DNA from: Melioribacteraceae bacterium
GTDB lineage: Bacteria; Bacteroidota; Ignavibacteria; Ignavibacteriales; Melioribacteraceae
Assembly (NCBI GenBank): GCA_021739765.1
Contig: JAIPBD010000009.1
Span: forward strand, 62,001-126,000
Direction: 5' to 3'
DNA length: 64,000 bases
Shown: in pieces, positions 7,143-43,314 of the stretch
Layout of the letters: every line of letters starts with the position of its first letter
Position numbering within the stretch: the first letter of the stretch is position 1
Notes under the pieces: generated by a model
What the model saw: only the letters and a program-made list of their open reading frames with translations
Database searches by the model: none
Told to the model about the DNA's origin: nothing
Position numbers and translations under genes: made by a program

Positions 7143-8315
7143 ATGATATTTCAAATCAACAAAAAAAAAATCATCTTAGTTGGCTTACTAATATTTTCAG
7201 TTTGTGCATGTGGATTTTCTTCGGTTGATATAGCGGAACTTGAAAAAGAGCGAGTAATTCGTTTGGCTGATTCTTATTTAAACGAAAAACCGATTACGGT
7301 TACCGACTTTAAGGCGGAGCGGAGTGCAGGCGGAATTCACGATTATTATTCGGAAGGAGATTATTGGTGGCCGAATCCTAAAGATCCAAACGCCCCTTAC
7401 ATTCGCAAGGATGGTTTAACAAACCCGGATAATTTTGTATCGCATCGAAAAGCGATGAGACGATTTTCACTTATTGTCCCAGCCCTTGTAGGTGCTTATA
7501 AAATAACTGAAGATCCCAAATATCTGAACGCTGCTTTAAAACACATCGAGGCTTGGTTTGTAAATGAGGCAACAAAAATGAATCCCAACCTTCTGTATTC
7601 TCAAGCCATATTTGGCAAAGCTACCGGAAGGGGAATCGGGATAATCGATACGATTCATCTTGTTGAAATTGTTCAATCTCTAATTGTTCTCGATTCATAT
7701 TCGGTGATAGACCAATCACGAATGGAAAAGATAAAAGCATGGTTCTCTGAATATTTGGAATGGCTGACCACAAGTGATTTTGGAATCGCGGAGCGCGATA
7801 ACGGTAATAATCACTCTACCTGTTGGTTAATGCAAGTTGGAATATATGCGAAGTTTGTTGACGATTCACAAACACTTAAATATTGCAGAGATTTCTTCAA
7901 AATTGAGATCATCGAATCACAAATGGCGACGGATGGAAGTTTTCCTCTCGAATTAAAAAGAACAAAACCATACGGTTATTCTTTGTTCAACTTGGACGCG
8001 CTGGTAATTTGCGCAAAAATTCTTTCAAATGATGAAAATAATTTGTGGGAATATCGAACTGAAAATGGTCGATCTGTAAAATTAGCGGTCGATTTTATGT
8101 ATCCTTTTATAAAAGACAAATCCGTTTGGCCGTACGAAAAAGATGTGATGTATTGGGAAAATTGGCCCGTTCGGCATCCTTCACTCATTTTCGCCTACGA
8201 AGCTTTCGGCGAAAAAAAATATGTCGATTTGTGGATTGAATTAGAGCCTGAGCCACAGATGGAAGAAATTATTAGAAATTACCCTTTAAGACAACCAATA
8301 TTATGGATCGATTGA
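7143..8315 (+). CDS. alginate lyase family protein (PF05426-type alpha-toroid)
   Basis: This 390-aa exported protein (signal about residues 1-24; a Cys near the cleavage point, SVCAC, could make it a lipoprotein) has an alpha/alpha-toroid lyase body. Family motifs are EGDYWWPNPKDPNAPYIRKDG at about residues 75-95, LYSQAIFGKATGRGIGIIDT and NNHSTCWLMQVG, with Asn223-His224 as the likely neutraliser/base pair seen in PL5-type lyases. The DYWWPNP/YIRKDG signature also fits the PL38 group, so alginate or polymannuronate cleavage is likely but glucuronan is possible. A paralogue lies at 38865. The gene starts 8 bp after uxaC and ends 1 bp before the GH88-GH2 gene. Confidence 0.8.
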   Translation: MIFQINKKKIILVGLLIFSVCACGFSSVDIAELEKERVIRLADSYLNEKPITVTDFKAERSAGGIHDYYSEGDYWWPNPKDPNAPYIRKDGLTNPDNFVSHRKAMRRFSLIVPALVGAYKITEDPKYLNAALKHIEAWFVNEATKMNPNLLYSQAIFGKATGRGIGIIDTIHLVEIVQSLIVLDSYSVIDQSRMEKIKAWFSEYLEWLTTSDFGIAERDNGNNHSTCWLMQVGIYAKFVDDSQTLKYCRDFFKIEIIESQMATDGSFPLELKRTKPYGYSLFNLDALVICAKILSNDENNLWEYRTENGRSVKLAVDFMYPFIKDKSVWPYEKDVMYWENWPVRHPSLIFAYEAFGEKKYVDLWIELEPEPQMEEIIRNYPLRQPILWID

Positions 8316-19137: not shown

Positions 19138-19305
19138 GTTAATTTAATTGGTAAGTTATCACACTAAAACAACACATAACACGAATTCAAACTACTAGTG
19201 AAAAAACTACTTTCAGACCTAAAGGTAGAACATTTCTCCAATCTACTGTTATTTATGATTCACTATCACATTGCGTAAGTAGAATTTCTATTACAAGAGG
19301 TGTAT

Positions 19306-22197
19306 ATGAAATTAATGGTTAAGATGTGCCTTCTCATCTTACTAATCTCCTTTATTACCACAAATATTTGGGCTGGTGAAAAGGGTAAAATCTCCGGAAA
19401 AATTATCGATAGTCAAACTGGCGAGCCCCTAATCGGTGCAAATATCATTTTGCTTTCACGTTGGCAGGACGGAAGAGAATTCAGGCTTGAAACCATAATG
19501 GGCGGATCAACTGATTTCGAAGGAGATTATTTTATAATAAATATTCCTCCCGGAATGTACAGTCTAAAAGCGTCATACGTCGGTTATGCGGATAAAGTTT
19601 TAACGAATGTTCAAGTTAACGTTGATCGAACCACAATCGTTGATTTTGAATTAACGGCCGAAGACCTTGTAACAGACGAAGTTTTAGTGACGGCATATTC
19701 TCCGCAAACCGTTGAGAAAGATCTAACCGCGACAAAACAAACTTATAACATCGATGAGGTTCAAAGTTTGGCAGGCGTTGCGGATATTGCCGACATATTG
19801 GAATTACAAGCAGATGTCGTCGACGATCACTTTCGAGGCGGAAGAGTCGGAGAATCTCTTTATTTAATGGGCGGTGGTTCTATTGTTAATCCATTAAATA
19901 ATCAAAGAGCATTTAAACCTATCGTTACCGGGCTGGAACAAGTAGAAGTATACACAAGCGGATTTAGCGCGGAATATGGAAACGCACAATCCGGTGTTGT
20001 AAATATGGTAACCAAAGAAGGCGGGGACAGATGGGAAACAAGAGTAGAATTCGCCGCAAATCCACCTTATTATAAATCGTGGGCCGGTAGCCCTTACTCG
20101 ACATCAAATTTAGATTTTTATAATGGTTTAACTGATCCGGTTTCTTGGTTGGATGAAAATCCCACTCAACCCGGTAAACCGCTTTATGATGCAGGTTATG
20201 GATTCGGACCGAGATATTTACCACCAAGAGTTACCTGGCCGCCTGATCCGTTAACCCAAAACGATTCGCTTCACATCGCGAGATTAGGTCAAGTTCTCTG
20301 GCTGCAATCTGTTAGGGACGTTGGAATGGAGTATGATAACACGGTTGATCATAGATTGGATTTTACTATCGGTGGACCGATTACTAAAAAATTAAAAATG
20401 TTTGTAGCGGGAAGACAAAACATTGAAAATCCGATTGTTCCAACTCCAGATGATGATATTGAACGGCAATTGCTGACAAGTTTCAGTTACCAACTTGATA
20501 ACAGCAACAAATTAAAATTCCGATTTGTTTATGATAATGTATTTGAAAATGGATTGAGCAGCAATTGGGAACGATGGTTGTTCGATCGAACATTTTATGT
20601 TTCAAAACTGAACAACACTTCACTTCAGTTCGGATTGAGCTGGAACTACATTCAATCCAGATCAACTTTCGCTGACATAAAGTTAAATGTTCTTAAGGTT
20701 CAAACTGAAGAGAGAATCGAACTTCTCGAAGAAGGGGAGTTTTTAGAGGATTATTCACAAGGGACAAATTGGGTCGATTATACAGGACCTTCAAACCACA
20801 GAGTAGGACGTTTGGTTGATGACCGCGGTGTTGAGAATGTAACTACTTATGATTTAAGTGCAAGTGTAACTTCTCAGGTTGATAAAGGAAATTTATTAAA
20901 AGCCGGATTGCAATTCTCCTATTACGATTTAAATGTTGATCAACAGGAAAATGTTACGAATCCCGGATCATTTAGAGCTATTCAGTTTTCCGCTTTTCCT
21001 TACGAAGGAGCATTTTTTGTTCAAGATAAAATGGAATTTGAAGGATTTATTGCAAATATCGGAATCCGATTTGATTTCTATGATTTCAACTATAACTTCT
21101 TCTCTGATATTTATTCTCCTCTCCGAAATCCAAATTATGATGACAGCAAACCTTATTTGGAAAGAGGGCAATATTATAATCCAAATGAGGCGCAAAAGGA
21201 GAAAACAAAATTATTTTCACGGATTCAACCCAGAGTCGGACTTTCATTCCCACTATCAGAGACTTCTGTTTTCCATTTAAATTACGGTACGTTTACACAG
21301 CGGCCATCTTTCAATCAAATATTCTATAACCAAGTAACAATTTTTAATGAAATTGAAGAGCTTGGAAATCCAAGGTTGAAACCGGAAAATACCAAAGCCT
21401 ACGACATCGGTCTGGTAAATGCGTTTCCGTTCGGTGTTAAATTAGATGTAAGCGCTTATTACAAAGATGTTACCAACCTCGTAGAATCCGCGTATTACTA
21501 CGACGAACAACAAACGGTTTATCAGACATATATAAATCGTGATTATGCCGATATTAAAGGATTTCATATCAGTCTCGAAAAAAGCGAAGGATCTGTAAGA
21601 GGCTATTTAAGATATAATTACGAATCCGCGACCGGTAAAAGCAGTAATGCATTAGATGCTCCCGTTACTTATTTCGAACAACCTGCTGAAGGTCAGGATG
21701 CATCCGAACTACCTGATCCGGAGGATGTATTCTTGAACTACGATCGTTCACACAAAGCTGTTGCAAATATCAGATACTTAACACCATCCGAATTTTTATT
21801 CGGTATTGATGATTTTTATCCGTTCGGTTCAATCAATGTAAGTCTTACCTATAAAGCATATACGGGAAGACCTTACACCTATGATGAAACCGGACAAGGC
21901 CTGAAGTTCAACAAAAGAACTCCGGTTGAACAAGACTTGAGAATGAGAATTGAAAAAAGAATCAGGATGGCAAATACTGATCTGATTATTTATGGCGAGG
22001 GATTTAATCTTCTTAACAAAGAAATTTACAACTATTCACGCACTTTCGATGATGAAAGAAATACACCAAGATGGGAGAACGACAGAGAGAATATTCTAAC
22101 TGATGATGAATATTTCCCTTATGTAACAAGTCAGGAGCTATATCTCCTTTCTAATCAACCCAGACATTTCAGATTTGGCGTAATTGTCAAATTTTAA
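19306..22197 (+). CDS. TonB-dependent receptor with N-terminal carboxypeptidase-regulatory-like domain (SusC-like)
   Basis: The ATG at 19306 is preferred over a GTG at 19300 because AGAGG ends 5 bp upstream of it; this gives about 963 aa. After the signal peptide (to about Ala22) comes a carboxypeptidase-D-regulatory-like domain (residues about 26-115, GKIIDSQTGEPLIGANI, YVGYADKVLTNVQV). The plug follows (about 120-235, ending GFSAEYGNAQSGVVNMVTKEGG), then a beta-barrel with a terminal phenylalanine (FGVIVKF). It would import oligosaccharides through the outer membrane with TonB energy. The neighbour is not SusD; a T9SS protein occupies that place. It is the first gene of the surface block and sits directly behind the operator. 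Confidence 0.93.
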   Translation: MKLMVKMCLLILLISFITTNIWAGEKGKISGKIIDSQTGEPLIGANIILLSRWQDGREFRLETIMGGSTDFEGDYFIINIPPGMYSLKASYVGYADKVLTNVQVNVDRTTIVDFELTAEDLVTDEVLVTAYSPQTVEKDLTATKQTYNIDEVQSLAGVADIADILELQADVVDDHFRGGRVGESLYLMGGGSIVNPLNNQRAFKPIVTGLEQVEVYTSGFSAEYGNAQSGVVNMVTKEGGDRWETRVEFAANPPYYKSWAGSPYSTSNLDFYNGLTDPVSWLDENPTQPGKPLYDAGYGFGPRYLPPRVTWPPDPLTQNDSLHIARLGQVLWLQSVRDVGMEYDNTVDHRLDFTIGGPITKKLKMFVAGRQNIENPIVPTPDDDIERQLLTSFSYQLDNSNKLKFRFVYDNVFENGLSSNWERWLFDRTFYVSKLNNTSLQFGLSWNYIQSRSTFADIKLNVLKVQTEERIELLEEGEFLEDYSQGTNWVDYTGPSNHRVGRLVDDRGVENVTTYDLSASVTSQVDKGNLLKAGLQFSYYDLNVDQQENVTNPGSFRAIQFSAFPYEGAFFVQDKMEFEGFIANIGIRFDFYDFNYNFFSDIYSPLRNPNYDDSKPYLERGQYYNPNEAQKEKTKLFSRIQPRVGLSFPLSETSVFHLNYGTFTQRPSFNQIFYNQVTIFNEIEELGNPRLKPENTKAYDIGLVNAFPFGVKLDVSAYYKDVTNLVESAYYYDEQQTVYQTYINRDYADIKGFHISLEKSEGSVRGYLRYNYESATGKSSNALDAPVTYFEQPAEGQDASELPDPEDVFLNYDRSHKAVANIRYLTPSEFLFGIDDFYPFGSINVSLTYKAYTGRPYTYDETGQGLKFNKRTPVEQDLRMRIEKRIRMANTDLIIYGEGFNLLNKEIYNYSRTFDDERNTPRWENDRENILTDDEYFPYVTSQELYLLSNQPRHFRFGVIVKF

Positions 22198-22212
22198 AAT
22201 TGGAAGTAACTG

Positions 22213-24486
22213 ATGGAGAAATTTATGACATATAAAAAATCACTGATAAGACTCGTTTTGGTTACGATTCTTGTATTGCCTGTATTAAATTCAGCTCAGA
22301 TTCGCGAGTACAGAATTCATGACCGCGGAATGCTTCACGAGACTTTATTTAATACCGGAGAAATTGGGCGTGGATGGATGACGGGTCAAGCCGGAAACGT
22401 AACCAACGTACCATTGATGGAATGGCCTTCAAGATCTAAAACAATTGTTCAAGGAATCGAATACAGCGGTCAGCATAATTTACTTGGAGCCGGTGTTTAC
22501 ATCGCGGCCAACGAAGATGGATTACCCGGCAAGGACAATAGAATCTACGCCTTCTGCGGAGGTGTTGGAGCGAGTGCACCTGAAGTTGTTTTCGGCCGTT
22601 GGAGTTTTCCTTATTACATAAATGAAACAGAAAATTTTCCGTTGTTGGATGACGGTTCGTTAAATCCGGATTATGATCCAAATGAAGCGGAAGAAATTAT
22701 TGAAGCCGCATGGGCTTCATCCGTAGGGATTTCGGTGAAAAGAACTTCCCGGGCATGGAGCTACCCCGATTATGATGACATGATTATTTACGAATATGAA
22801 TTTGTTTACAATGGCGATACCGATGGAAATCCAGAAACGATTGAACGAACCACAAAACTTAAAGATGTAATGATAGTTTTGATTTACGGATTTGCTCCTT
22901 CAATGTATGGTTACCAAAGACATTATCAAGAATGGAAATACGACGCTGGAATTTACAGAGGTGATCAACATAATTTCTGGGATGCAGATTATTGGCTGGG
23001 TTTTAACTTAACTACACATACAGGTTCAAGTGATTTTTCATCACAGTTTCTTGCGGCCAAACCGGAACCAAATCCCAATCTTTTTAAGCAATACGCGGAA
23101 ACCGGCTTAAATGGTGGTGGATTAGCTTCTCCTCAAGCTCCGGGTTACGCGATGCTGTATTATGATACAAACCATCTCGCCGTCGTCAGTCCCACCAATG
23201 CCGATAGCAACGAATCGGAGGCGGTAAGCATTCTTCGTACAGTCGGTGGTCAATTTTACGAACTTGATGAAAATGGTCATTTCAAACAACCTTGGTCAAA
23301 TAAAGTCAGTACCGGAAATACTCGATCGTCAAAAATGATGGATCAATCCATAAATCCGGATAGCAGATGGAGTGGAGTATACAGCGACGGTTCAACAACA
23401 TGGTCGAAAGTGCCGAGGGATAATCCAAGATGGTACGGAAGAGCCGCTTTTAATTACCGCCAAAGCATTGATGCCGGTCAGAAACACATGACTTACGGCC
23501 CATATACAATAGAATTGGGTGATACTCTCCGGTTTGCGGTTGCCGAAGTTGTAGGATATGGAGCACAGGCAAATAAACTTGTTGAAGGAGGTCCTTCGGG
23601 AGTTGCCGGGCAATTAGTTCAGTGGAATCGTACTCCAAATTGGAATAAAAAGGTTGTGATTAACGGAGAGACTTTAACCGAGAACTATCTCGATGATTAT
23701 GGCTATCCCGATTATGTTAATTCTGATGTAAAAACAGTTACTCAAGTTGCACACAACGCGCATAAGGCCTACTTAGGACAAGAGCCCGTCCTCCCAATTT
23801 GGCCTGAGGACAATCCCCCAAAAGGGGATTATAGAATTCCCGTTCCCGTTCCGGCACCAAAAATATCGCTTTCGAATACCGCTGATGGAAATGTGATGCT
23901 TAATTGGAACAGAAACGCTGAGAATTTTTCACATCCGAGATTAATGGGAGCGTTAGATAAATATATCGTTTTGAAAAGTATTGCCGGAATGGGACCATGG
24001 AATGATACTGTGGCAGTACTGATGAAAAATGATGTTGATGAAAATAATGAATATACAATTATCGATGATGACCCGGATTACAAAATTGGCGAAACACGTT
24101 ACTACTCGGTTATTTCAGTTGATGTAAACGGAAATACCAGCGGTAAAACAAACATCACAAAATTTGATAAAAACGTTGGTTCCGTTGATAAACTTGGTAC
24201 AGTTCAAGCGGTGCCGAATCCATTTATTTCCAAGTCAGGCTTCCAAGGCTCTGGTGAAGTAAATGACCAAATCGGATTTTACGGTTTGCCTGAAAAATGC
24301 ACCATTCGGATCTTCTCATATTCCGGACAACTTATTGAGGAAATAGAACACGACGCGCCTTTATACACAACAGCATGGTTTCAGGTAACCAGAAACGGTC
24401 AAGATGTTGCATCCGGTATTTATTTCTTTGTAGTAACTACACCAAACGGTGAAAATTACAAAGGCAAGTTCGTAATTATTAAATAA
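22213..24486 (+). CDS. T9SS-sorted surface protein of unknown function next to the TonB receptor
   Basis: This 757-aa protein could start at 22213 or at ATG 22225, which has GGAG upstream. After the signal (ending near LNSAQ) I recognise no family: the first 500 residues are rich in Trp, Tyr and Gly (FGRWSFPYYINETENFP, DMIIYEYEFVYNGDTDGNP, NPRWYGRAAFNYRQS). A fibronectin-III-like module lies at about 545-660 (PAPKISLSNTADGNVMLNW, TRYYSVISVDVNGNTS). The end is a T9SS type A sorting domain (VQAVPNPF ... SGQLIEEI ... VASGIYFFVVTTPNGENYKGKFVIIK). It starts 15 bp after the SusC-like gene, where SusD normally lies, so it may be a substrate-capturing partner (inference). Confidence 0.75.
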   Translation: MEKFMTYKKSLIRLVLVTILVLPVLNSAQIREYRIHDRGMLHETLFNTGEIGRGWMTGQAGNVTNVPLMEWPSRSKTIVQGIEYSGQHNLLGAGVYIAANEDGLPGKDNRIYAFCGGVGASAPEVVFGRWSFPYYINETENFPLLDDGSLNPDYDPNEAEEIIEAAWASSVGISVKRTSRAWSYPDYDDMIIYEYEFVYNGDTDGNPETIERTTKLKDVMIVLIYGFAPSMYGYQRHYQEWKYDAGIYRGDQHNFWDADYWLGFNLTTHTGSSDFSSQFLAAKPEPNPNLFKQYAETGLNGGGLASPQAPGYAMLYYDTNHLAVVSPTNADSNESEAVSILRTVGGQFYELDENGHFKQPWSNKVSTGNTRSSKMMDQSINPDSRWSGVYSDGSTTWSKVPRDNPRWYGRAAFNYRQSIDAGQKHMTYGPYTIELGDTLRFAVAEVVGYGAQANKLVEGGPSGVAGQLVQWNRTPNWNKKVVINGETLTENYLDDYGYPDYVNSDVKTVTQVAHNAHKAYLGQEPVLPIWPEDNPPKGDYRIPVPVPAPKISLSNTADGNVMLNWNRNAENFSHPRLMGALDKYIVLKSIAGMGPWNDTVAVLMKNDVDENNEYTIIDDDPDYKIGETRYYSVISVDVNGNTSGKTNITKFDKNVGSVDKLGTVQAVPNPFISKSGFQGSGEVNDQIGFYGLPEKCTIRIFSYSGQLIEEIEHDAPLYTTAWFQVTRNGQDVASGIYFFVVTTPNGENYKGKFVIIK

Positions 24487-24512
24487 TTTCTAAAGATGCT
24501 CAAGGAAGCAAA

Positions 24513-25481
24513 ATGAGAAAATTATTAGCAAAAGTTTTAATCGTATTTCTGATTCTTACATCAAAGAGTTTCGCTTTTGAAAAAGTTGGAACAACTTCCT
24601 TTCAATTCCTGAAAGTAATAACTTCGGCAAGAGCCGCGGCGATGGGCGGAGCATATAGCGCAATCGCTTTCTCATCCGATGCTATATTCTGGAATCCTGC
24701 GGGTTTGACTCAGATTAAAAATTTCGCTTTGGGATTCGGGTATCTCGATTGGTTTATGGATGTTCAGCATTATTCATTTTCTGCCGCTTACACCATAGAT
24801 GGAATAGGAACATTCGGTGTTCTCGGAATGGGAACTTCAGTCGGTGATATTCCGGTAACCACAGTTTCGCAGCTTGGGTTCGTGGATGGAGTCTATAATC
24901 CAGGGCTAACCGGTGAATCTTTCAGTCCGAGTTCTTCAGTTTTTGGAATTTCATTCGCTCGACAATTAAACGATAAATTCTCCTTTGGTTTAACGGTAAA
25001 ATATGCGAGGGAGGATTTGATTTACGAAAGTGCCGAAGCAATAATATTTGATGGTGGATTAAGATTCGACACAAAATTCAAATCGATAGTTATCGCGGCA
25101 ACTTTGCGTCATTTCGGTCCTGAAATAAAATTTGTTGATGAAAGTTATCCGCTTCCTCAAACCTTAAATATCGGAATCAGTGCTTATTTGTTTTCCGACG
25201 ACGATCCGTTGTTGATGACGGTCAAATCACATAAGCTGCTACTTGCCTACGATATTGTACAACCGAGAGATTTTGACCAGCAGCATAATGTTGGAATGGA
25301 ATACGGGTACGAAGGTTTGGTTTATATACGCGGCGGTTATGTTTTTAATAGTGATCAGGAAGGTTTAAACGCAGGCATCGGAGTTGATTATCGCGGCTAC
25401 CGTGTTGATTACGCTTACAGTGAACACGGCACTTATTTAGGTTCAGTGCATAGAGTCTCAGTCAGTTACTCTATCAATTAA
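24513..25481 (+). CDS. PorV/PorQ-family outer-membrane protein
   Basis: The 322-aa protein shows the family opening after its signal: FQFLKVITSARAAAMGGAYSAIAFSSDAIFWNPAGL. It then continues as alternating beta-barrel strands to a C-terminal SVSYSIN. PorV (LptO) is a T9SS component that shuttles cargo with a C-terminal sorting domain from the translocon to the attachment complex; PorQ is its relative. Having a copy within a cluster that encodes five T9SS cargo proteins suggests a dedicated carrier for these enzymes (inference). It lies 26 bp after the 757-aa gene and 20 bp before the next barrel gene. PorV versus PorQ cannot be decided by eye. Confidence 0.85.
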   Translation: MRKLLAKVLIVFLILTSKSFAFEKVGTTSFQFLKVITSARAAAMGGAYSAIAFSSDAIFWNPAGLTQIKNFALGFGYLDWFMDVQHYSFSAAYTIDGIGTFGVLGMGTSVGDIPVTTVSQLGFVDGVYNPGLTGESFSPSSSVFGISFARQLNDKFSFGLTVKYAREDLIYESAEAIIFDGGLRFDTKFKSIVIAATLRHFGPEIKFVDESYPLPQTLNIGISAYLFSDDDPLLMTVKSHKLLLAYDIVQPRDFDQQHNVGMEYGYEGLVYIRGGYVFNSDQEGLNAGIGVDYRGYRVDYAYSEHGTYLGSVHRVSVSYSIN

Positions 25482-25501
25482 AAGATTTTCGGAGTTTACT
25501 T

Positions 25502-27016
25502 ATGATTAATTTCAGAAAAATATTTACTCTCCAAATTGTCATTTTGACGATTTTTTCAGCAAATATTTCGGCTCAACATCGCGGCGATAATTTGAGTTTC
25601 CAAGGATTATCAACCCAAAATGAATATGGAGTGAGAGTTTCATCCATGGGTGGAGCAGGTGTTTCGCTTTTGGGAGATCTTTCCGCGATATTTTACAATC
25701 CCGCCGGATTGACCGGAATAAAATCTCTCCAAGTTTCTGTCAGTGCAAACTCTTCTAACTTTGGATGGAGAGAGAACCAGGACTATCGGCCAAACAGATT
25801 ATTTGCTACACTCCCTTTCTACTTAGAAGGTTTATACATTCCCGATCCTGCGGATGATGGCGTTTTTGACCACGAAAGATTATGGACTGACGATCAGCAA
25901 ATTGATTCATCTTATGTCGTTACTGATCCAAAATTAGGCTTAGACCCGTTTAGCGAAGAGGCCGCGGATTGGAAACATGACATAAGTAATTTTTCGGTAA
26001 GTGATATTTCTGTTGCAATGCCCTTCGAACTTGAAGGGAATAATTTTGTTGTCGGACTAGGTTATCATCAATCAATATCCATAGAAGATTTTGACCGGAA
26101 CGATACTTATCTCGATCCGCATATCGGCTATTTTGGTTACGGAGAAATTGGTAAAGTTAACGGTGTTGATACCTTAGATGTTAACTGGTATAAGTTTTTA
26201 AGAGAAAAATCCGGAAGTGTAAATTCAATAAATTTTGCACTTGGTTACGAAGTAATGAAGGAGATAAATGTCGGAGTTGGATTTAAATACTTTTGGGGAA
26301 ACTCCGATGATAAACAAGCTTTGGATCATTTTGGAAAATTCTCTTTGATCGATGAAAATCGATTTAAGTTTTATCACAAGAACCAACTTCTTCAATCATC
26401 CGGCTCTTCCGATTACTCCTATATGAAAATGAATATTGGAGCGTTGGTTAACCTGGAGAAAATAACATTCGGAATTAATATTGACTTACCCTATACAATT
26501 ACAAGAGATTGGAGTTATTCAACGACATTAACTGATTCAAACGGTACAGTTAATTCTTCAACTTCCGGTTCTGACGAACTATCGATTCCGATTGGATTTA
26601 GCGCTGGGCTTACTTTTTTACCGGTAGATAATTTTTCGTTATCCCTTGCAATAGAAAATAAACAATTTGCCGATGCGGAATTTAGTCTGGCAAATAATGA
26701 TTCTACACATAGAAATTGGAGTAATCAACTAATTTTTAGAGTGGGCACAGAATATGAGGCAATACCTGGTCTTTATTTAAGAGCCGGTTATAAACTTATC
26801 CCTGAAGTTTTTATTCCTGATGGCGCCGCAATTAAAGATGAAGGTCCTACTGCAAAAAGTTATTCCTTCGGGGCCGGATACGACCTATTTATGGGCACAA
26901 TCAATGTCGCTTATGAAATTCGTGAACTTCGGTATTATGACTCTTATTATAGCAATACCAACTACGTAACTCAGTCGTATGAAAATATTTCTTTTGGATA
27001 CACAATAAAGTTCTAA
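25502..27016 (+). CDS. FadL/OmpP1-like outer-membrane beta-barrel
   Basis: This 504-aa protein has a signal peptide (ending near NISAQ) and the MGGAGVSLLGDLSAIFYNPAGLTGIKSL motif that the FadL/OmpP1 and PorV families share. Long amphipathic strands and a C-terminal aromatic (ENISFGYTIKF) follow. FadL-type barrels form diffusion channels for hydrophobic or other small molecules. Here it might serve as a second porin for oligomers or as another T9SS-associated barrel. The resemblance of its N-terminus to the preceding PorV-like protein suggests that both derive from one fold. The spacing of 20 bp upstream and 30 bp downstream keeps it in the operon. Confidence 0.75.
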   Translation: MINFRKIFTLQIVILTIFSANISAQHRGDNLSFQGLSTQNEYGVRVSSMGGAGVSLLGDLSAIFYNPAGLTGIKSLQVSVSANSSNFGWRENQDYRPNRLFATLPFYLEGLYIPDPADDGVFDHERLWTDDQQIDSSYVVTDPKLGLDPFSEEAADWKHDISNFSVSDISVAMPFELEGNNFVVGLGYHQSISIEDFDRNDTYLDPHIGYFGYGEIGKVNGVDTLDVNWYKFLREKSGSVNSINFALGYEVMKEINVGVGFKYFWGNSDDKQALDHFGKFSLIDENRFKFYHKNQLLQSSGSSDYSYMKMNIGALVNLEKITFGINIDLPYTITRDWSYSTTLTDSNGTVNSSTSGSDELSIPIGFSAGLTFLPVDNFSLSLAIENKQFADAEFSLANNDSTHRNWSNQLIFRVGTEYEAIPGLYLRAGYKLIPEVFIPDGAAIKDEGPTAKSYSFGAGYDLFMGTINVAYEIRELRYYDSYYSNTNYVTQSYENISFGYTIKF

Positions 27017-27046: not shown

Positions 27047-28681
27047 ATGATTGGAAAAAGAATACTATTTATTCTCTTCCTATCTCTGTTTGTTTCTAAC
27101 GCGGTTTATTCTCAATTAACAAAAATTGAAGTGACCGCAGAATTTGATTTTCAACAAGCAGTAGTTTTTGCGATGCAACAAAATGTCGATACACTTTTGC
27201 TTACCACATCCGGAGGTGTATACACAACAACTGATACAAATTATTTTAATATTCAGAAACCTCTATCAATAGTTGCCGCTCCCGGATTGGCAGAAATGCC
27301 GATTATTACTCATTCCGATCCTGATTCAAGTATTCTAGAAATGTTTAGAGTATCTGATGATTTGTATGTTGAAGGAGTAATTTTTGATGGTGGGCATGCC
27401 CAATCTCATGGAATGAAATACGCACTGAGAGGTGGCCCGTGGTACGAAGAAGGTCCCGCAGCTAAAACCGGTTTTGATATTATCGTTAAAAACTGTGTTT
27501 TTAGAGATCTCTATGAGGACAAAGATTTGAATAAAGCCGGTCACGCTATCTATTTTCTTAGAGATGTTGTTGGAGGAACGGTTAAAGTTGAAAACTCAAC
27601 TTTCGTAAACATCGGTGATGAAGCAATGAGAATGGCAGAGACTGAAAAATTTGCGACTGAGCGTGTCCTTGATTCTTTAATAGTACGTAATTGTACTTTT
27701 AATAATATAGATGCGGAATGTGTTAGATTTTATGCAGATACCGATACATCAACGACTGATGCGGTTGTCATACTCGAAAATTTAACAATCGATAATTCAG
27801 CAACACGCGTTATGTATATTAAAAACAATCAATTTGCTGTCGCAAGAAATATAATTATCTCCAACAGTAGATTGCCTGCTCCGGATAGGGCTGACCGCGG
27901 TGATTATTTAATGCAATTGCAACAGCGTGGGTCTTATATCGCGAATGTTGATACTTTTAATATTGTTTATGGTTTTCCAAATCCACCTGCGATAAGTGCA
28001 ACAAAAGGCGCAATTGGTTTAATCGAAGGAACAGTTTTTAATTTTGATCCGATGTATGCCGATGCCGCGAATTTGGATTACACATTAAGTGAAGATTCAC
28101 CGGCATATTACTCGGGTGAAAACAATACACATCTCGGTTCACTTACTTGGGCGACGAATACACCGACAAGACTTCCACTTAATACAACAACCGAAGGTGG
28201 AGGAACATTTACATTTAGTCCTGAAAGAAAAGGGCTAACATTTCCTGCCGGCACTTCTGTAACTGTAACCGCCGTTGCCGATTCAGGATACGAATTTGTT
28301 GAATGGGGAGGCGATTTAAGCGGGGCAAACAATCCCGAAACAATAACAGTTGATGCATTTAAGAATGTTTCCGCTACATTTTCACCGGTAACCGGAGTTG
28401 AAGACGAATTAATTGTTGAGAAATATTCTCTTTCCCAAAATTACCCGAATCCTTTCAATCCAAGTACTGCGATTAAATTTACGGTAAAAGAAAGTGGAAA
28501 AACTTCACTAAAGATCTATGATTTACTCGGTCAAGAAATAAAAACATTGTTTAATAAAAATCTGGAAGCCGGCACACACACATATTTCTTTAATGCGAGT
28601 GAGTTAGCGGCAGGTGTTTATCTATATCAACTTGTTTCAGGTGAATACTCTTCTACCAAAAAAATGACTTTACTAAAATAA
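27047..28681 (+). CDS. T9SS-secreted right-handed beta-helix protein with InlB-type B repeat
   Basis: The start has the strongest ribosome site in the region (TAGGAGGT). The 544-aa product has a signal peptide, then a parallel beta-helix of the chondroitinase-B/DUF4957-like kind (about 25-375: LLTTSGGVYTTTD, VEGVIFDGGHAQSHGMKY, VKNCVFRDLYED, VENSTFVNIGDEAMRMAE, VRNCTFNNIDAECVRFYAD). A divergent InlB B-repeat follows (about 380-448, AGTSVTVTAVADSGYEFVEW), then a T9SS type A domain (YSLSQNYPNPFNPSTAIKF to KKMTLLK). Its helix is closely related to the fourth helix module of the next, 1740-aa protein. A polysaccharide-binding or lyase role is likely; no catalytic residues can be assigned. Confidence 0.82.
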   Translation: MIGKRILFILFLSLFVSNAVYSQLTKIEVTAEFDFQQAVVFAMQQNVDTLLLTTSGGVYTTTDTNYFNIQKPLSIVAAPGLAEMPIITHSDPDSSILEMFRVSDDLYVEGVIFDGGHAQSHGMKYALRGGPWYEEGPAAKTGFDIIVKNCVFRDLYEDKDLNKAGHAIYFLRDVVGGTVKVENSTFVNIGDEAMRMAETEKFATERVLDSLIVRNCTFNNIDAECVRFYADTDTSTTDAVVILENLTIDNSATRVMYIKNNQFAVARNIIISNSRLPAPDRADRGDYLMQLQQRGSYIANVDTFNIVYGFPNPPAISATKGAIGLIEGTVFNFDPMYADAANLDYTLSEDSPAYYSGENNTHLGSLTWATNTPTRLPLNTTTEGGGTFTFSPERKGLTFPAGTSVTVTAVADSGYEFVEWGGDLSGANNPETITVDAFKNVSATFSPVTGVEDELIVEKYSLSQNYPNPFNPSTAIKFTVKESGKTSLKIYDLLGQEIKTLFNKNLEAGTHTYFFNASELAAGVYLYQLVSGEYSSTKKMTLLK

Positions 28682-28693
28682 TAGGAGCAGGAG

Positions 28694-31600
28694 ATGACTA
28701 TGAAAAACTATCTCAAATTACTTTTCCTTTTTATGATTTTTTCCGGCATTTTGATAAATGCACAGGCACTCCACCAGATTGCAGCCGGCGATAGTACATT
28801 GGCAGCCGCGATTAAAGATGCGGCACCTGGTGATGTAATTGAACTTACAACGGATGGTGGTTTGTACACCAATCCTAATCAAATAGTAATTAGTAAGGAT
28901 TTAACAATTTTTGCCAGCGATCAATTGGCAAACAAACCGGTTATTATGTATACCGGTTCGAACACCGGTGCGTATATGTTTAAGGTTGATACGACGGCAA
29001 ACCTGCTTTTCAAAGGTTTAGATTTTGCCGGCGATGGAACAAATAGCGGCGGCGCCGCACTCGCTAAATATATATTTAGAATCGATACGGAAGATACCAC
29101 TACTGCTGTGAACTTAAAAATTATGGATTGTGTGCTTCACGATACTCAAGATAAGATGATCAAACCTTATCCATTAAGTGGAATTGATTCAATTATAGTT
29201 CACAATTCAACATTCTACAATGGCGGAAAAGAAGCGATTGTACTTTATAGCGGTTCAACATCCGATCCACAGGTTTATTTGAATTATGCCGAAATTGTCA
29301 ATTGTACTTTCTACAATATTGTGAGAGAAGCGGTTAAAGGCGATACCAATCCAAATAGTACTGCTTTGATAGATCATTGTACAATGTACGATGTAGGAAA
29401 TGGCGAACAAAAAGCATTTGTATATTTTGATGATTTCAAATCTGTAGTCGTAAGCAATTCAATCTTTCAAAATAATAACGAAACCGGAAACTTCATCAGA
29501 TTGGAAGGCGACGGAAGTTTCGTTAATAACTGTATTGTTTGGGATGTGGATGACTGGGAAATTGACAACGCGACTGTTACCGATACATTGCATGTTGATC
29601 CCTTGTTCGCAGATACAACTAATGCCGATTTCACACTGCAAGAAGGTTCTATTGCATTAGTATATTCTGCAGATGGCAAACCGATTGGCGATCTAAAATG
29701 GGCGCCAAAAGAACCTGTTGTCCGTGACCCGATGATTGTTCAAGTTGCCGAAGGCGATAGCACGCTAGCAGAAGCAATTAAAAATTCTGTACCCGGCGAT
29801 GTAATTGAATTGATTACCGATGGTGGACTTTACACCAATCCAAATCAAATTGTATTGAGTCATGATTTAAGAATTGTTGCTCACGAACAATTAGTAAATA
29901 AACCCGTTATTATGTACACAGGCGATAATACCGGTGCTTACATGTTTAAAGTTGATGCGACTGCTAATCTTGAATTTAAAGGATTAGATTTTGCAGGCGA
30001 CGGAACTAATAACGGCGCTGCTGCTCTCGCTAAATACATCTTTAGAATTGATACGGAAGATTCTACCAGCTCCGTGAACTTAAAAGTTATGGATTGTATG
30101 CTTCATGATACTCAAGATAAGATGATCAAACCTTATCCTTTAAGTGGAATTGATTCAATTATCGTTCATAACTCAGTATTCTATAATGGCGGATCAGAAG
30201 CGATTGTTCTTTACAGCGGTTCAACTTCAGATCCTCAAGTGTACTTGGATTATGCTGAAGTTATTAACTGTACCTTTTATGCTATAACAAGAGAAGCGAT
30301 TAAAGGGGATACAAATCCCAACAGTACTGCTTTGATAGATCATTGTACAATGTACGATATTGGCGGGCTGGATAAAGCATTTGTTTACTTCGATGATTTC
30401 AAATCTGTTGTAGTAAGTAACTCAATCTTCCAAAGAAATAACGAAACCGGAAACTTTATCAGATTGGAAGGGGACGGCAGTTATGTAATGAACAGCATTG
30501 TTTGGGATGTAACTGATTGGGAAATAGACAACGCAACAGTAACAGATACTTTGCACGTCGATCCAATGTACACTGATCCCGCAAATGCAGATTTTACTCT
30601 TAAGTCAGGATCGCCCGCAATCGGATTTGGTACCGATGGAAAAACAATCGGCGATCCAAGATGGGACCCTAATATAGGTGAACCTGTAGTACATAAAATT
30701 GATGAGGGAACGGATGTGCTGAAAGCAGCAATTGATGCAGCAAATCCCGGTGATGTAATAGAATTAACCTCAAGCGGTGGAATGTATTTATCGAATGACC
30801 AAATTGAATTGGATAAAGATCTTACGATCCGTGCGAGGGAAGGTCTGGCTGAAAAACCGGTTCTTAAATATGTTGGTACAGAAACCGGCGCATATATGTT
30901 CAAAATTCCTTCTACCGCGAACATTATGTTTGAAGGACTTGAATTTGATGGTGATGGAACGAATGACGGTGGAGCAGCCTTGGCAAAATATATCGTGATT
31001 ATCAGAACTGATGATTCAACAACTGCAGTAAATCTAAAAATTGATGATTGTATTCTTCACGATACCCAAGACAAAATGATCAAACCTTATGGTTTGAGCG
31101 GAGTTGATTCTATTATAGTTCATAACTCAGTATTCTATAATGGCGGATCAGAAGCGATTGTTCTTTATAGCGGTTCAACTTCAGATCCTCAAGTGTATTT
31201 GGATTATGCTGAAGTTATTAACTGTACCTTTTATGCTATAACAAGAGAAGCGGTAAAAGGGGATACAAATCCAAACAGTACTGCTCTGATCGATCATTGT
31301 ACAATGTACGATATTGGCGGGCTGGATAAAGCATTTGTATATTTCGATGATTTCAAATCTGTTGTAGTAAGTAACTCAATCTTCCAAAGAAATAACGAAA
31401 CCGGAAACTTCATCAGATTGGAAGGGGACGGCAGTTATGTAATGAACAGCATTGTTTGGGATGTAACTGATTGGGAAATTGACAACGCAACAGTAACTGA
31501 TACATTACATGTTGATCCTTTGTATATGGATCCGACCAATGCAAATTTTGTACTTGCTTCCAATTCACCTGCAAGAACACTTGGAGCAGGCGGAACACCA

Positions 31601-33970: not shown

Positions 33971-36913
33971 TTGAAATCGAAAATAAAATATCTCCCAATT
34001 CTACTATTAATAGCTATCTCAAAGCTATTATCACAATCAACTTATGTAGTTGATTCGGCAACTGAAATCACACAAGCGATGGTAGTTGCAATGCCTGGAG
34101 ACACACTGGTAATGTCATCAGGATTTTGGACAAACGAAAAAATCGTCTTTGAAGGAAACGGAACAGAAAATAATCACATTGTGCTTAAAGCGGAAATTCC
34201 AGGACAAGTTGTGTTGAATGGAACTTCCACTTTAAGGATTTCGGGTAGTTATTTAACTGTTGACGGACTTTACTTCTACGGAGGATATTCCGGTTCCGGA
34301 GCAATTGTTGAATTTAGAAATGGATCATCAAAATTGGCAAACAATTGTCGATTTACAAATTCAGCCATTGTTAATTACAATCCGGCAAATAAATCAACAG
34401 ATTACAAATGGGTTTCTTTGTTTGGCACCTACAATCGAGTTGACAACTGCTACTTTGAAGGTAAAACTCACGACGGTACAACCCTCGTAGTTTGGCTGGA
34501 TGGAAAACCAAATTATCATTTAATTGATAATAATTACTTTGCCAAAAGACCTGAATTAGGTTATAACGGCGGCGAAACAATTCGAATCGGCACCAGCACT
34601 TACTCGCTTACCGATTCTTACACTACCGTCGAATACAATTATTTTGAACACTGCGATGGCGAAATAGAAATTATTTCCAACAAATCCGGGCATAACATTT
34701 TTAGATATAACACATTTTTTGAAAATAACGGGATGCTAACTTTACGCCATGGTAATTTCGCCGAAGTTTACGGCAACTTTTTCCTCGGCAACAATTATTC
34801 AAATTCCGGTGGAGTTCGAATTATCGGTGAAGACCACAAAGTATACAACAATTATTTCTCCGATCTTCGCGGTTCAGGATTCAGATCAGCTTTAACAATA
34901 ATGAATGGTGTACCTAATTCACCGCTGAACAGATACTATCGTGTGCAGCGAGCTTTGGTAGTCAATAACACATTTGTCAACTGTACTGAAACTTTTAACA
35001 TTTGTGAGGGTTCGGATTCTGAATTATCACTTCCACCGATTGATTGCATAATTGCTAATAACGTTGTTAAAGCTACGAGACAAATTATTGATTACGATGA
35101 GGATGATGAACCGGTAAATTTGAAGTATGAAGGAAATATTTTTTACGGCGGTTCGTTAGGGATTGATCCGGTCAACGGTATATCAACCGAAGATGGTAAA
35201 TTGGCTGAATCACTAGATGGTTTATGGCGTCCGTTAGATGATAGTCCGGTTATTGATGCCTCCATAGGAACTTATGATTTCGTAACGGACGATATGGATG
35301 GTCAGTCCAGGAGTGGAACTACTGATATTGGAGCGGATGAGAAATCCACGGACCCGATTATTCATAAACCACTTACCGGCGATGATGTCGGACCAAATTG
35401 GTATCCGCCTCCCACCCCGGCAATAAAGGTGATTAAAGTTCAAGCTGGAGCGGATTCACTTCTAAATGCGATAAATAAAAAAGGCCGCGATGATATTATT
35501 GAACTAATAACCGATGGCGGTATTTATACAATCTCCGGTGAAATAACCGTTGATTCGGAACTAATCATACGGGGTGCAGATAGTTTAACAAATAATCCGA
35601 TTATTCAAAACATTTCCGCTTCCTCTTCAAAAAGTATCTTTGTTTTGGATGACGGCGCTTATTTAGATTTATCAAATGTTGAACTTGATGGATTGGCGGG
35701 TACTAACAATCCTGCAAAATACCTTATCCGTACCGATAGCAATCCTATGACAAAAGATTACAAACTTAAAGTTAGAAATAGTTTTTTAAGAGATGTTGTT
35801 TCCGGTTCAGAAGGGAATTTCTTTCGCGCTTACGAAGGTACATTTGCCGATACAATAATTTTCGCCCATTGTCTTTTTACAAATGCCGGAAAAGAGGGAA
35901 TTAGACTCAAAGATGAACAAACGAATAGCGGAAAATACAATGTAGGTTATTTCAGAATTTCCAACTCGACTTTTTGGAATACGAAGCGGGAAGCAATAAA
36001 CATTTATGGCGGAGATGCGGTACTTTTTACGCCGGGTCCGGAATTTCAGATAATTTCATCAACATTTTACAAATGTGGAATTGATGGAACGCCGATAATT
36101 GAAACAAAAGATACTGACGATACTGAGATAATTAACTGCATTTTTGCTGAGAGCAACCACAATATATCCGTTTCGCTTTATAGTCAAATAGCCGAGCTGA
36201 GCTATTCTTCCTTTTATAATGTTGGTGAAATTGAACTCAACAACAACGCGAAGATTGGCACCGGAATCGTAAATTATGATCCAAAATTTGAAGACCCTTC
36301 CAGCTCGAATTTCAGCATTACAGGCTCATCATTCACACTCAAAAGTTCTGATAAATCGGGTCCGCTTGGCGATCCCAGATGGGCGGTAAATTCACCTGAA
36401 TTTACAAAACTTAGTATCACAGTTTTCGGAGAAGGTTCGGTCGCCACGGAACCGGACTCAAACGGGTTGTTTTTCGACCTCAATTCTTCAATTACAGTAA
36501 CCGCTATTCCCGGTGAGAATTATAATTTTACACAGTGGAGCGGAGATTTATCCGGGAATGATATTTCAGCACCATTAGTAATGGATTCCGATAAAAGTAT
36601 ATTTGCAATATTTGAGCTTTCAACAGATGTAGAATTTGAATTGGCTCCAAATGAATATAAACTTCATCCCGTTTTTCCAAATCCATTTAATCCTTCAACA
36701 CAAATCAATTTCCAACTGAAGGAACAAGCATTTGTAAATATTTCGATTTACAATACGATTGGAGAGAAAGTACAGACTTTAATTGCCGAAATTTATTCGA
36801 CCGGGCATCATAGTTTACACTGGCAGCCAAATAATTTGGGCAGCGGAATTTATATCGTACGAATGGTGACTGACAATTATGTTTTTACTCAAAAAGCAAT
36901 TTTAATCAAATAA
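33971..36913 (+). CDS. PL6-family alginate lyase with extra beta-helix, InlB-type repeat and T9SS domain
   Basis: The start is a TTG at 33971; no ATG precedes the signal peptide. The 980-aa protein has a PL6 (chondroitinase-B-like) helix at about 22-400. Diagnostic motifs are NGGETIRIGTS (about 199), EIISNKSGHNIFRYN with Lys238, and NGMLTLRHGN with Arg259. The Lys-Arg spacing of 21 matches the catalytic base and acid Lys220 and Arg241 of AlyGC. RIIGEDHKVYNNYFSDL follows. A second helix (about 490-800, DDIIELITDGGIYT) resembles modules of the 1740-aa protein. An InlB-type repeat (about 815-880) and a T9SS domain (FPNPFNPSTQINF to KAILIK) complete it. It cleaves alginate by beta-elimination at the cell surface. 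A strong hairpin lies just upstream. Confidence 0.93.
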   Translation: MKSKIKYLPILLLIAISKLLSQSTYVVDSATEITQAMVVAMPGDTLVMSSGFWTNEKIVFEGNGTENNHIVLKAEIPGQVVLNGTSTLRISGSYLTVDGLYFYGGYSGSGAIVEFRNGSSKLANNCRFTNSAIVNYNPANKSTDYKWVSLFGTYNRVDNCYFEGKTHDGTTLVVWLDGKPNYHLIDNNYFAKRPELGYNGGETIRIGTSTYSLTDSYTTVEYNYFEHCDGEIEIISNKSGHNIFRYNTFFENNGMLTLRHGNFAEVYGNFFLGNNYSNSGGVRIIGEDHKVYNNYFSDLRGSGFRSALTIMNGVPNSPLNRYYRVQRALVVNNTFVNCTETFNICEGSDSELSLPPIDCIIANNVVKATRQIIDYDEDDEPVNLKYEGNIFYGGSLGIDPVNGISTEDGKLAESLDGLWRPLDDSPVIDASIGTYDFVTDDMDGQSRSGTTDIGADEKSTDPIIHKPLTGDDVGPNWYPPPTPAIKVIKVQAGADSLLNAINKKGRDDIIELITDGGIYTISGEITVDSELIIRGADSLTNNPIIQNISASSSKSIFVLDDGAYLDLSNVELDGLAGTNNPAKYLIRTDSNPMTKDYKLKVRNSFLRDVVSGSEGNFFRAYEGTFADTIIFAHCLFTNAGKEGIRLKDEQTNSGKYNVGYFRISNSTFWNTKREAINIYGGDAVLFTPGPEFQIISSTFYKCGIDGTPIIETKDTDDTEIINCIFAESNHNISVSLYSQIAELSYSSFYNVGEIELNNNAKIGTGIVNYDPKFEDPSSSNFSITGSSFTLKSSDKSGPLGDPRWAVNSPEFTKLSITVFGEGSVATEPDSNGLFFDLNSSITVTAIPGENYNFTQWSGDLSGNDISAPLVMDSDKSIFAIFELSTDVEFELAPNEYKLHPVFPNPFNPSTQINFQLKEQAFVNISIYNTIGEKVQTLIAEIYSTGHHSLHWQPNNLGSGIYIVRMVTDNYVFTQKAILIK

Positions 36914-42557: not shown

Positions 42558-43313
42558 ATGCATAACTTCACAAATAAGGTAGCCATTGTAACCGGAGGAG
42601 CGAGAGATATCGGCAGATATTGTTCATTAAAATTAGCGGAAGGCGGTGCCTCGGTTTGTATTAATTATTATGATAATAAAGAACAAGCTGAAGAAACAAT
42701 CAAAATGATTGAAGATATGGGCAAAAAGGCTATTGTGGTTCAGGGTGATATGACCAAAGCCGACGATGTTAAAAAAGTTGTTGATGAATGCCGTAGCGCG
42801 TTCGGGGAGGAAATTCATTATCTGATTAATGTTGCAGGTGGATTAGTCGCGAGAAAAACTATGTCCGAAATGGATGAAGACTTTTGGAATTTTGTGTTGG
42901 ATCTTAATCTTGGTTCGGTATTCAAAGTTACAAAAGCTGTACTTCCGTTTATGCCGGCAGGTGGCGCTATTGTTAATTTTGCTTCACAAGCAGCGAGAGA
43001 TGGCGGTGGCCCGGGAGCCAGCGCATACGCAACTTCGAAGGGAGGAGTATTAACATTTACACGTGGTTTAGCAAAAGAGCTTGGACCGAAAAATATCCGT
43101 GTAAATTGTGTTTCCCCGGGAATGATAAATACAACTTTTCATGACACATTTACAAAACCGGAAGTAAGAGCAAAAGTTGCCGGCGGAACACCATTAAGAA
43201 GAGAAGGTGAAGCCCCGGAAGTTGCCGATCTTGCAGTTTATCTATTATCAGACAGCGCTTCTTTTATTACCGGAGCCTCAATGGAAATTAACGGCGGAAC
43301 CTATTTCATCTAA
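42558..43313 (+). CDS. SDR oxidoreductase, probable DEH reductase
   Basis: The 251-aa classical SDR has AIVTGGARDIGRYCSLKLAEGGASV, a dinucleotide site followed by NYYDNKEQAEETI, the INVAGGLVARKTMSEMDEDFW stretch, and the catalytic Ser, Tyr and Lys in NFASQAARDGGGPGASAYATSKGGVLTF. In alginate clusters of Bacteroidota and Vibrio, SDRs at this place reduce 4-deoxy-L-erythro-5-hexoseulose uronate (DEH) to KDG. The position directly before PL17 and KdgF supports that. An acetoacetyl-CoA-reductase-like role is the alternative from sequence alone. An AAGGAG site precedes the start by 8-13 bp. Confidence 0.82.
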   Translation: MHNFTNKVAIVTGGARDIGRYCSLKLAEGGASVCINYYDNKEQAEETIKMIEDMGKKAIVVQGDMTKADDVKKVVDECRSAFGEEIHYLINVAGGLVARKTMSEMDEDFWNFVLDLNLGSVFKVTKAVLPFMPAGGAIVNFASQAARDGGGPGASAYATSKGGVLTFTRGLAKELGPKNIRVNCVSPGMINTTFHDTFTKPEVRAKVAGGTPLRREGEAPEVADLAVYLLSDSASFITGASMEINGGTYFI

Positions 43314-43314
43314 A

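Follow-up and report, generated by a model that had tools for sequence, protein, structure and literature searches.

The SusCD system is the textbook glycan uptake route of the Bacteroidota, in which the genes for a receptor and a surface protein lie together in polysaccharide loci and occur in several paralogous copies per genome. SusD itself has a mostly helical TPR fold. Among the proteins exported by the type IX secretion system (T9SS), those with a type B C-terminal sorting domain (CTD) form pairs with PorP/SprF barrels (SprB/SprF, PG1035/PorP), in which a gene for the protein's own shuttle or anchor barrel lies downstream and the CTD type is distinct from that of general cargo. PorZ/PorQ pairs a CTD protein with a FadL-fold barrel, and the PorZ CTD is viewed as retained for PorQ binding (PMC10202324). 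SusC receptors carry a carboxypeptidase-regulatory-like domain (PMC8286568). A FadL-homologous barrel serves as a platform for surface proteins in BamG/BamG2H2 of Bacteroides (PMC12578637). In Myxococcus, the TonB-dependent transporter Oar is reportedly linked to the secreted protein PopC.

We analysed a stretch of 64,000 nucleotides from a Melioribacteraceae bacterium (the window) and describe a gene module that we consider, with a probability of roughly 0.55, to serve the TonB-dependent uptake of glycans, with a surface protein exported by the T9SS in the role that the lipoprotein SusD fills elsewhere. A literature search found no description of this module. Gene families were assigned by Pfam and NCBIfam model searches. 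Four ORFs occupy 19306-27016 on the forward strand with intergenic gaps of 15, 26 and 20 bp (Table 1), and their coordinates bear out the original prediction of a single run with 15-26 bp gaps. A GTG at 19300 is an alternative start of the receptor ORF. A promoter/terminator scan gave no terminator-like site in the three intergenic gaps, and is little informative because the site count of the region is not above that of shuffles.

Table 1. Features of the module and of its surroundings in the window
Feature	Position	Strand	Remarks
TonB-dependent receptor	19306..22197	+	N-terminal carboxypeptidase-regulatory-like domain, plug, barrel; PF00593, PF13620, PF13715
757-aa putative T9SS-exported protein (MID), SusD position	22213..24486	+	complete ORF
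MID C-terminal sorting domain (CTD), residues ~660-757	24190..24483	+	module-specific type
Outer-membrane barrel of the PorV family, proposed as MID's own shuttle or anchor	24513..25481	+	NF033709 185.6 bits
FadL/OmpP1-type barrel, typical of this MID subfamily	25502..27016	+	PF03349 36.8 bits
Putative T9SS-exported beta-helix protein, next gene	27047..28681	+	Por_Secre_tail 44.2 bits; ordinary cargo-type CTD
PL6-type (chondroitinase B family) lyase, ordinary CTD	33971..36913	+	PF14592 E 5.3e-104
PL17-like oligoalginate lyase	43207..45525	+	PF07940 + PF05426
Alginate lyase	7143..8315	+	PF05426 E 9.2e-82

The receptor matches the Pfam TonB barrel (PF00593, E 1.2e-19) and a CarboxypepD_reg domain, and a profile of 50 sequences of its family aligns with residues 6-154 of the colicin I receptor structure 2hdf_A (E 9e-07), an N-terminal portion which we take to be the plug. 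The module resembles SusC/SusD in this receptor with a carboxypeptidase-regulatory-like domain, in the surface protein gene that follows it, in its polysaccharide locus and in its several paralogues per genome. The label "SusC-like" given to the receptor in the original prediction has no support from the family test, as none of its 11 NCBIfam matches at E<=0.1 is a SusC/RagA model, in a library that presumably includes one. MID has no Pfam or NCBIfam family above cut-off and is touched only by T9SS-related tail models, all below cut-off; its Pfam matches at E<=0.1 are CHU_C and Por_Secre_tail alone, with no SusD model among them. Its AF2 model (pLDDT 92.4, pTM 0.89) is beta-rich with few helices, and it has no lipobox, since no Cys occurs in residues 1-36 of the translation. 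The module is unlike SusC/SusD in the lack of SusC and SusD model matches, in the missing lipobox and in the T9SS CTD of MID, and may also be so in the predicted beta-rich structure of MID. The predicted absence of SusD is supported by a search of this genome with PF07980, PF14322 and PF12771, which gave zero matches for each and speaks against a SusD elsewhere in the genome; PF14322 likewise detected no SusD in seven of the eight genomes of the census described below.

Gene 3 is a member of the PorV/PorQ family, its NF033709 score being above the cut-off of 90. It lies below both equivalog cut-offs (PorQ, 88.4 with a cut-off of 220; PorV, 59.7 with a cut-off of 250), and a profile of 26 of its relatives matches the solved PorV 6h3i_F (E 7.8e-20). 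Of eight module barrels scanned in this genome, six score higher with the PorQ than with the PorV model, a point in favour of the reading proposed here. The genome encodes SprA, PorU and PorV, and its PorU-linked PorV, at 242.3 bits, is slightly under the same PorV equivalog cut-off of 250. Gene 4 exceeds the FadL/OmpP1 cut-off of 29.7. A FadL-type barrel is what the module has in common with BamG/BamG2H2, whose partners are instead lipoproteins and BamA; the match of gene 4 to BamG is weak (50.3 bits, cut-off 250).

MID motifs found 129 homologous loci, and the best 80 were compared, some of which stand on the same contigs as separately taken genome loci (L061 and L040, for example). The order TonB receptor, MID, PorV-family barrel and FadL barrel is intact in 66 of these 80; of the other 14, 12 are interrupted by a contig end or by a frame break next to one and two are true exceptions. 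Judged by record titles, the order occurs in Ignavibacteria, Calditrichia, KSB1, Neomarinimicrobiota and Rhodothermales, so that the recurrence to be checked in Ignavibacteria and Calditrichota loci is present among the best 80 of 129 loci and extends to other groups; Roseithermus sacchariphilus is one bearer of the four-gene form. In 79 of the 80, the MID family member comes directly after a TonB receptor gene or the end of one, and in the eightieth the contig starts inside that member, which speaks against a MID family occurring mainly away from TonB receptors. Neither of the two results named in advance as refuting the prediction was therefore found, there being no SusD match and the MID family adjoining TonB receptors. 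A protein search of a plasmid collection gave one record, a Rhodothermus marinus plasmid; in strain DSM 4252 a triad lies on plasmid pRMAR01.

A census of the window's genome and seven genomes picked for lying in one to nine contigs used HMMs that were partly trained on triad members from the first 20 loci. It counted 98 PorV-family genes, 55 of them in a strict triad of receptor, T9SS protein and PorV, and a further 10 with all three genes nearby (three near-strict and seven displaced), for a total of 65. There are 4 to 12 sets per genome, and about one PorV-family barrel for each MID rather than one for each genome. A FadL gene comes next after only three of the 55 strict triads. The original framing of a single four-gene locus was thus right as to the order and too narrow in scope, this genome alone having 12 sets and the eight genomes 65. 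By PF00593 coordinates alone, 41 of the 98 PorV-family genes have a TonB receptor on the same strand within 8 kb upstream, against 1.9 expected under uniform placement, which speaks against a chance neighbourhood of the two. The module is like the type B pairs in having its own barrel gene downstream and a CTD type that general cargo does not share; it is unlike them in that its barrel is of the PorV/PorQ family, its CTD is nearer to type A, and 65 of the 98 PorV-family loci encode a TonB receptor along with the pair.

The CTDs of the triad proteins form a type of their own in a held-out HMM test, in which whole genomes, not families, were left out and near relatives of a tested CTD stayed in training: all 55 triad CTDs were told from ordinary T9SS cargo, and 103 of 109 other CTDs were called cargo. 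The remaining six all belong to MID-like proteins whose genes precede a receptor-PorV pair at a distance of a few genes, so the test uncovered displaced MIDs that had been labelled cargo beforehand. Six variant-order CTDs (L147, L179, L184, L220 and two of L231), separated from the main test in advance and scored apart, were all called triad. The triad type was also assigned to all 72 complete MIDs of the 80-locus set (best 80 of 129) and to the Rhodothermus marinus plasmid protein (109.4 versus 9.9 bits). With its own genome held out, the CTD of the window's MID scored 95.7 bits with the triad-type HMM and 33.6 with the cargo-type. Two results count against a separate type: the dividing edge in a CTD tree has a support of only 0.27, and one of 16 CTDs adjoining other PorV genes (L230) was also called triad. 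Motif counts in the last 90 residues were set aside because the PNPF motif in triad proteins sits right at the cut.

MID could instead be ordinary T9SS cargo, an enzyme or adhesin made together with uptake genes, in which case the barrel would be one more general shuttle and the receptor would act alone. With the type A model (TIGR04183), the MID CTD scores 21.9 bits, below the cut-off of 23 and close enough to it that the general PorV might handle MID; the same model lists four of the nine other MIDs of the genome at E<=0.01 (17.8-22.0 bits), with five unlisted. In the known system, PorV is reported to recognise every CTD of type A (PMC12618676), and operon mates need not interact. This reading has to face the locus's further T9SS proteins, which have the other CTD type: the PL6-type lyase CTD scored 92.0 with the cargo-type HMM and 10.7 with the triad-type, and the beta-helix protein, with its genome held out, 121.7 and 17.7. 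The ratio of barrels to MIDs seen in the census also speaks against it, as does the finding that MID and barrel stay beside the receptor where the other genes of the loci differ widely. We therefore regard it as unlikely.

The trees of receptor, MID and barrel agree (r 0.89-0.93; tree agreement overall spans r 0.80-0.93), with within-genome shuffles reaching 0.34 at most and none of 1000 equalling the observed agreement, a result to be read in the light of the fact that co-travelling genes agree even without protein contact. This agreement suggests that the module genes were multiplied within genomes as a unit. With the other parts removed, receptor and MID body remain linked (partial r 0.64 among paralogues and 0.69 among orthologues), and among paralogues it is the MID body that the receptor tracks most closely. 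The CTD follows the barrel more than its own body among paralogues (partial r 0.54 versus -0.05), and its own body more than the barrel among orthologues (0.55 versus 0.22). The proposition that the CTD is always closer to the barrel than to its own body was dropped, as the orthologue set did not repeat the paralogue result; the failure of the CTD-barrel link among orthologues weakens a reading of the MID CTD by its own barrel. Taken with the separate CTD type, the tree agreement adds support to the original idea that MID has its own PorV-like carrier.

The surroundings of the module point to a polysaccharide substrate. We take the PF14592 protein of the window to be PL6 and the PF07940/PF05426 protein to be PL17, and the gene content of the locus suggests that its glycan is probably alginate-like. 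A polysaccharide lyase, glycosidase or sulfatase neighbours seven of 10 other sampled loci of the FadL subfamily; at the other three, a scan that took in one to three neighbours at each locus showed no carbohydrate enzyme. Such enzymes, here and in the seven relatives, are at odds with a receptor used outwards, in which the TonB-linked barrel would help to export or assemble MID into a surface structure, with no nutrient import. Its model would be Oar, reportedly required for PopC secretion in Myxococcus, and it finds room in the 52 of 55 strict triads that have no FadL gene next and fall outside the subfamily whose carbohydrate-enzyme context was sampled. MID, however, carries a T9SS CTD in a genome that encodes SprA, PorU and PorV, whereas the abstract on Oar/PopC mentions no T9SS CTD or PorV barrel. 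We consider an outward role improbable. Finally, the notion that MID and barrel are a PorZ/PorQ-like T9SS attachment pair serving the sortase, with the receptor as an operon passenger, draws on the match of the MID tail to PorZ (32.2 bits; 5m11_A, E 0.011) and on the higher PorQ than PorV score of gene 3, and is very improbable given that the PorZ likeness is confined to the tail and far under the cut-off of 260, that one attachment complex does not need 4 to 12 copies per genome, and that among paralogues the receptor follows the MID body; the module resembles PorZ/PorQ in pairing a CTD protein with a FadL-fold barrel, and differs in a MID body without PorZ sequence match, in its multiple copies per genome and in its tie to TonB receptors.

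Our best reading is that MID reaches the surface through the T9SS and acts there as a receptor for the TonB transporter, with its own PorV/PorQ-like barrel as carrier. MID would cross the inner membrane via Sec and the outer membrane via the ordinary SprA translocon, where the neighbouring PorV/PorQ-like barrel, not the general PorV, would take up the special CTD. The CTD would probably be retained, as in PorZ/PorQ and the type B/PorP pairs, so that MID is probably held by its own barrel. The MID body would then lie over the TonB receptor and bind the glycan fragments that the co-encoded lyases set free; the receptor, as expected of its family, would import these fragments with TonB energy. 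The FadL barrel may be an accessory of this subfamily.

More tentatively, and at somewhat less than even odds, the module may represent a third T9SS sorting class, that of surface receptors with their own CTD type, read by dedicated PorV/PorQ-like barrels that keep them on their partner TonB transporters as permanent lids; it could be the main counterpart of SusCD in several FCB-group phyla, and may be older than SusD or stand in for it. Should the module work in the way outlined here, it would account for the binding and import of substrates in large uncultured groups of glycan degraders, extend the T9SS signals by a class that has carriers of its own, and provide a function for many PorV-family paralogues.

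Four open reading frames occupy the positions originally stated on the forward strand, separated by 15, 26 and 20 bp, in the order TonB-dependent receptor, MID (a 757-aa T9SS-exported protein), PorV-family barrel and FadL-like barrel. The first gene was assigned by family search to the TonB-dependent receptors with a carboxypeptidase-regulatory-like N-terminal domain, and a profile of 50 relatives compared with solved chains matched the N-terminal part of the colicin I receptor (E 9e-07), which we take to be the plug. The description of this receptor as SusC-like was not borne out, as it matched no SusC model. Family model searches with MID returned no family above the cut-off. Its tail alone resembles T9SS domains, with PorZ as the best, and a profile of 70 relatives found the PorZ tail as its sole match among solved chains (E 0.011). 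An AlphaFold2 model of MID generated from 70 sequences (pLDDT 92.4, pTM 0.89) suggests a beta-rich body to approximately residue 540, a beta segment at 545-655 and then the T9SS C-terminal signal (CTD), these limits being our own division of the strands listed in the model. The third gene encodes a PorV/PorQ-family barrel scoring higher with PorQ (88.4) than with PorV (59.7), both under the equivalog cut-offs, and the fourth was of the FadL/OmpP1 type by family search.

This gene order recurs at other loci. Named genomes were scanned for relatives of MID and the best 80 of 129 loci were kept, which by record titles came from Ignavibacteria, Calditrichia, KSB1, Neomarinimicrobiota and Rhodothermales, Roseithermus sacchariphilus included. 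The whole receptor-MID-PorV-FadL order was present in 66 of these best 80 (63 plain, two with an extra FadL-like match and one with a frame-broken PorV gene). In 12 of the other 14, a contig end cuts the run and the genes that fit are present; at L117, one of the 12, the frame of PorV is broken just before the end. The true exceptions were L080, which has only the last part of the receptor and nothing recognised downstream, and L137, where MID is split over two frames and PorV is missing. Twenty neighboring proteins were sampled from ten loci of this four-gene subfamily. Eight of them, in seven loci, were carbohydrate enzymes (one PL6-type, two heparinase/PL17-like, two sulfatases, a fucosidase, a GH88 and a GH28), and the other 12 comprised beta-helix proteins, proteins of further kinds and ones that matched nothing; no carbohydrate enzyme was found among the one to three neighbors scanned at each of L077, L091 and L110. 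Because enzymes of differing kinds occur in seven of the ten sampled loci, the loci bearing FadL appear to form a glycan subfamily with varying substrate.

The run is flanked by TRAP transporter genes, a glucuronate isomerase, a KduI-like gene and a PfkB kinase, by two alginate lyases, one PL6-type lyase and one PL17-like lyase, and by a sulfatase and T9SS beta-helix proteins. Its substrate is probably a uronate-rich glycan, with alginate the likeliest. Downstream of the second copy in the same genome (L039) come a T9SS protein gene and two further genes locally similar to the sulfatase of the window, and this copy perhaps serves another sulfated glycan.

Coordinates of the four-gene module, its second copy and nearby genes
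Feature	Position	Strand	Remarks
Four-gene module	19306-27016	+	
Second copy of the module	L039:5185-12965 (G000:C28)		Same genome (G000)
Single 1171-aa ORF	8317-11832		GH88-like and GH2 domains; apparent enzyme fusion
1740-aa T9SS protein	28694-33916		Several near-repeated beta-helix-like blocks of ~300 residues each, by eye

The first three genes form a wider module. Among 20 loci picked by MID match, receptor, MID and PorV barrel stood in order in 19, and in the twentieth (L043) the contig stops inside MID; FadL matched at none of the ten distant loci picked in this way (L049-L058). A census made without MID selection took all 98 PorV-family genes above the cut-off in eight genomes, the window's own and seven chosen for lying in one to nine contigs. 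By Pfam coordinates, 41 of the 98 had a same-strand receptor at most 8 kb upstream versus 1.9 expected, and when read on the DNA 55 formed strict triads of receptor, CTD protein and PorV. Three more are near-strict with MID in place: at L193 the tail call stops short of the end, and at L179 and L184 a further ORF, 342 or 318 aa long, intervenes between MID and PorV. MID is displaced at seven receptor-PorV pairs, lying downstream of the pair at L147 and upstream of the receptor at L141, L164, L165, L167, L174 and L177, with two ORFs between (three at L141). All three parts thus stand together or nearby for 65 of the 98 genes, with 4 to 12 per genome. The six upstream MID-like proteins are 691-708 aa long and occur in six of the eight genomes, and the ORFs between them and the receptor include a CTD protein and an ORF of 512-527 aa. 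One further gene (L231) accompanies CTD/MID proteins with no receptor seen in the stretch read. Eight lie behind PorU or a PorU-sized gene, family-confirmed in the window's genome only, where PorU scored 950 bits and the adjacent PorV 242 bits; this genome also encodes SprA. Another eight are the second member of a PorV tandem that follows a 519-540-aa CTD protein, an arrangement present in all eight genomes (L155, L223, L224, L225, L226, L228, L230 and L236). The other 16 include L187, which adjoins an upstream 452-aa cargo-type CTD protein.

The predicted lack of SusD held for the window's genome, in which PF07980, PF14322 and PF12771 each gave no match; a Bacteroides control was positive with all three models. 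PF07980 and PF12771 were applied to this genome alone. Of the 59 genomes in the relatives set, nine had a PF14322 match, as did one of the eight census genomes (G008), and the report of SusC, SusD and SusE in Melioribacter roseus (PMC3534657) counts against a general absence of SusD.

The CTDs of triad proteins differ in type from those of ordinary T9SS cargo. When 186 CTDs were placed on a tree, an edge of low support (0.27) set off a side holding 55/55 triad CTDs and 6/115 other, cargo-labelled CTDs, namely the MIDs of L147, L179 and L184, the L220 protein directly behind a PorV gene, and two CTD proteins from the cluster at L231. When a triad HMM was set against a cargo HMM with each genome left out in turn, the triad call went to all 55 triad CTDs and the six tree outliers, and the cargo call to 103 of the other 109 cargo CTDs. 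The six apparent errors were all upstream MIDs of displaced loci; as these had been labelled cargo beforehand and, for the other genomes, were part of the data on which the cargo HMM was trained, yet were called triad, they constitute a blind recovery. CTDs adjoining PorU-linked, tandem or other PorV genes were cargo in 15 of 16 cases, the exception being L230 (triad 40.0 versus cargo 32.6 bits). With its genome held out, the window's MID scored 95.7 as triad versus 33.6 as cargo; for the beta-helix T9SS protein encoded at 27047, the corresponding values were 17.7 and 121.7. Triad type was also assigned to all 72 complete MIDs from the best 80 of 129 loci and to a Rhodothermus marinus plasmid protein, and cargo type to four T9SS proteins of the window lying between 27047 and 38858, the window's own proteins not being held out here. 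At L231 and L220 (G050), triad-type CTD proteins adjoin tandem or doubled PorV-family genes.

Tree distances for receptor, MID body, CTD and barrel were correlated at 0.80-0.93 across 55 triads and at most at 0.34 in 1000 trials with partners shuffled within genomes. Among paralogues, partial correlations were 0.64 for receptor and MID body, 0.54 for CTD and barrel, 0.41 for receptor and barrel, and -0.05 for CTD and its own body. Among orthologues (54 loci), they were 0.69 for receptor and MID body, 0.73 for receptor and barrel, and 0.55 for CTD and its own body, exceeding the 0.22 for CTD and barrel. The CTD-barrel value surpassed the CTD-body value in 200/200 paralogue subsamples versus 3/200 orthologue subsamples. 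Thus, the receptor-MID link is repeated in both sets; the special CTD-barrel link was observed between modules and not inside one module. As the pairs are not independent, all of these values serve to order the links by strength and do not measure significance.

We found no description of this module in the open-access literature surveyed, and one may be in print elsewhere. Alginate uptake without SusD has been described in Gammaproteobacteria, with SusC homologues that lack the N-terminal domain (PMC8286568), an arrangement different from the triad module. PorV is described as recognising all type A CTDs, and type B CTDs as using cognate PorP/SprF barrels that are often encoded alongside (PMC12618676); for a type B protein, retention of the CTD and anchoring through PorP seem likely (PMC9143113). 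PorZ is reported to keep its CTD for PorQ binding, and cognate PorV-like barrels have been suggested to shield CTDs from cleavage (PMC10202324). The triad module fits this cognate-shuttle logic with a barrel that is PorV/PorQ-like, and the TonB receptor is its addition to the published CTD/cognate-barrel pairs. It joins two known kinds of system, receptor-plus-transporter uptake and cognate T9SS shuttles, into one module in which MID would serve as a surface receptor or lid of the TonB transporter.
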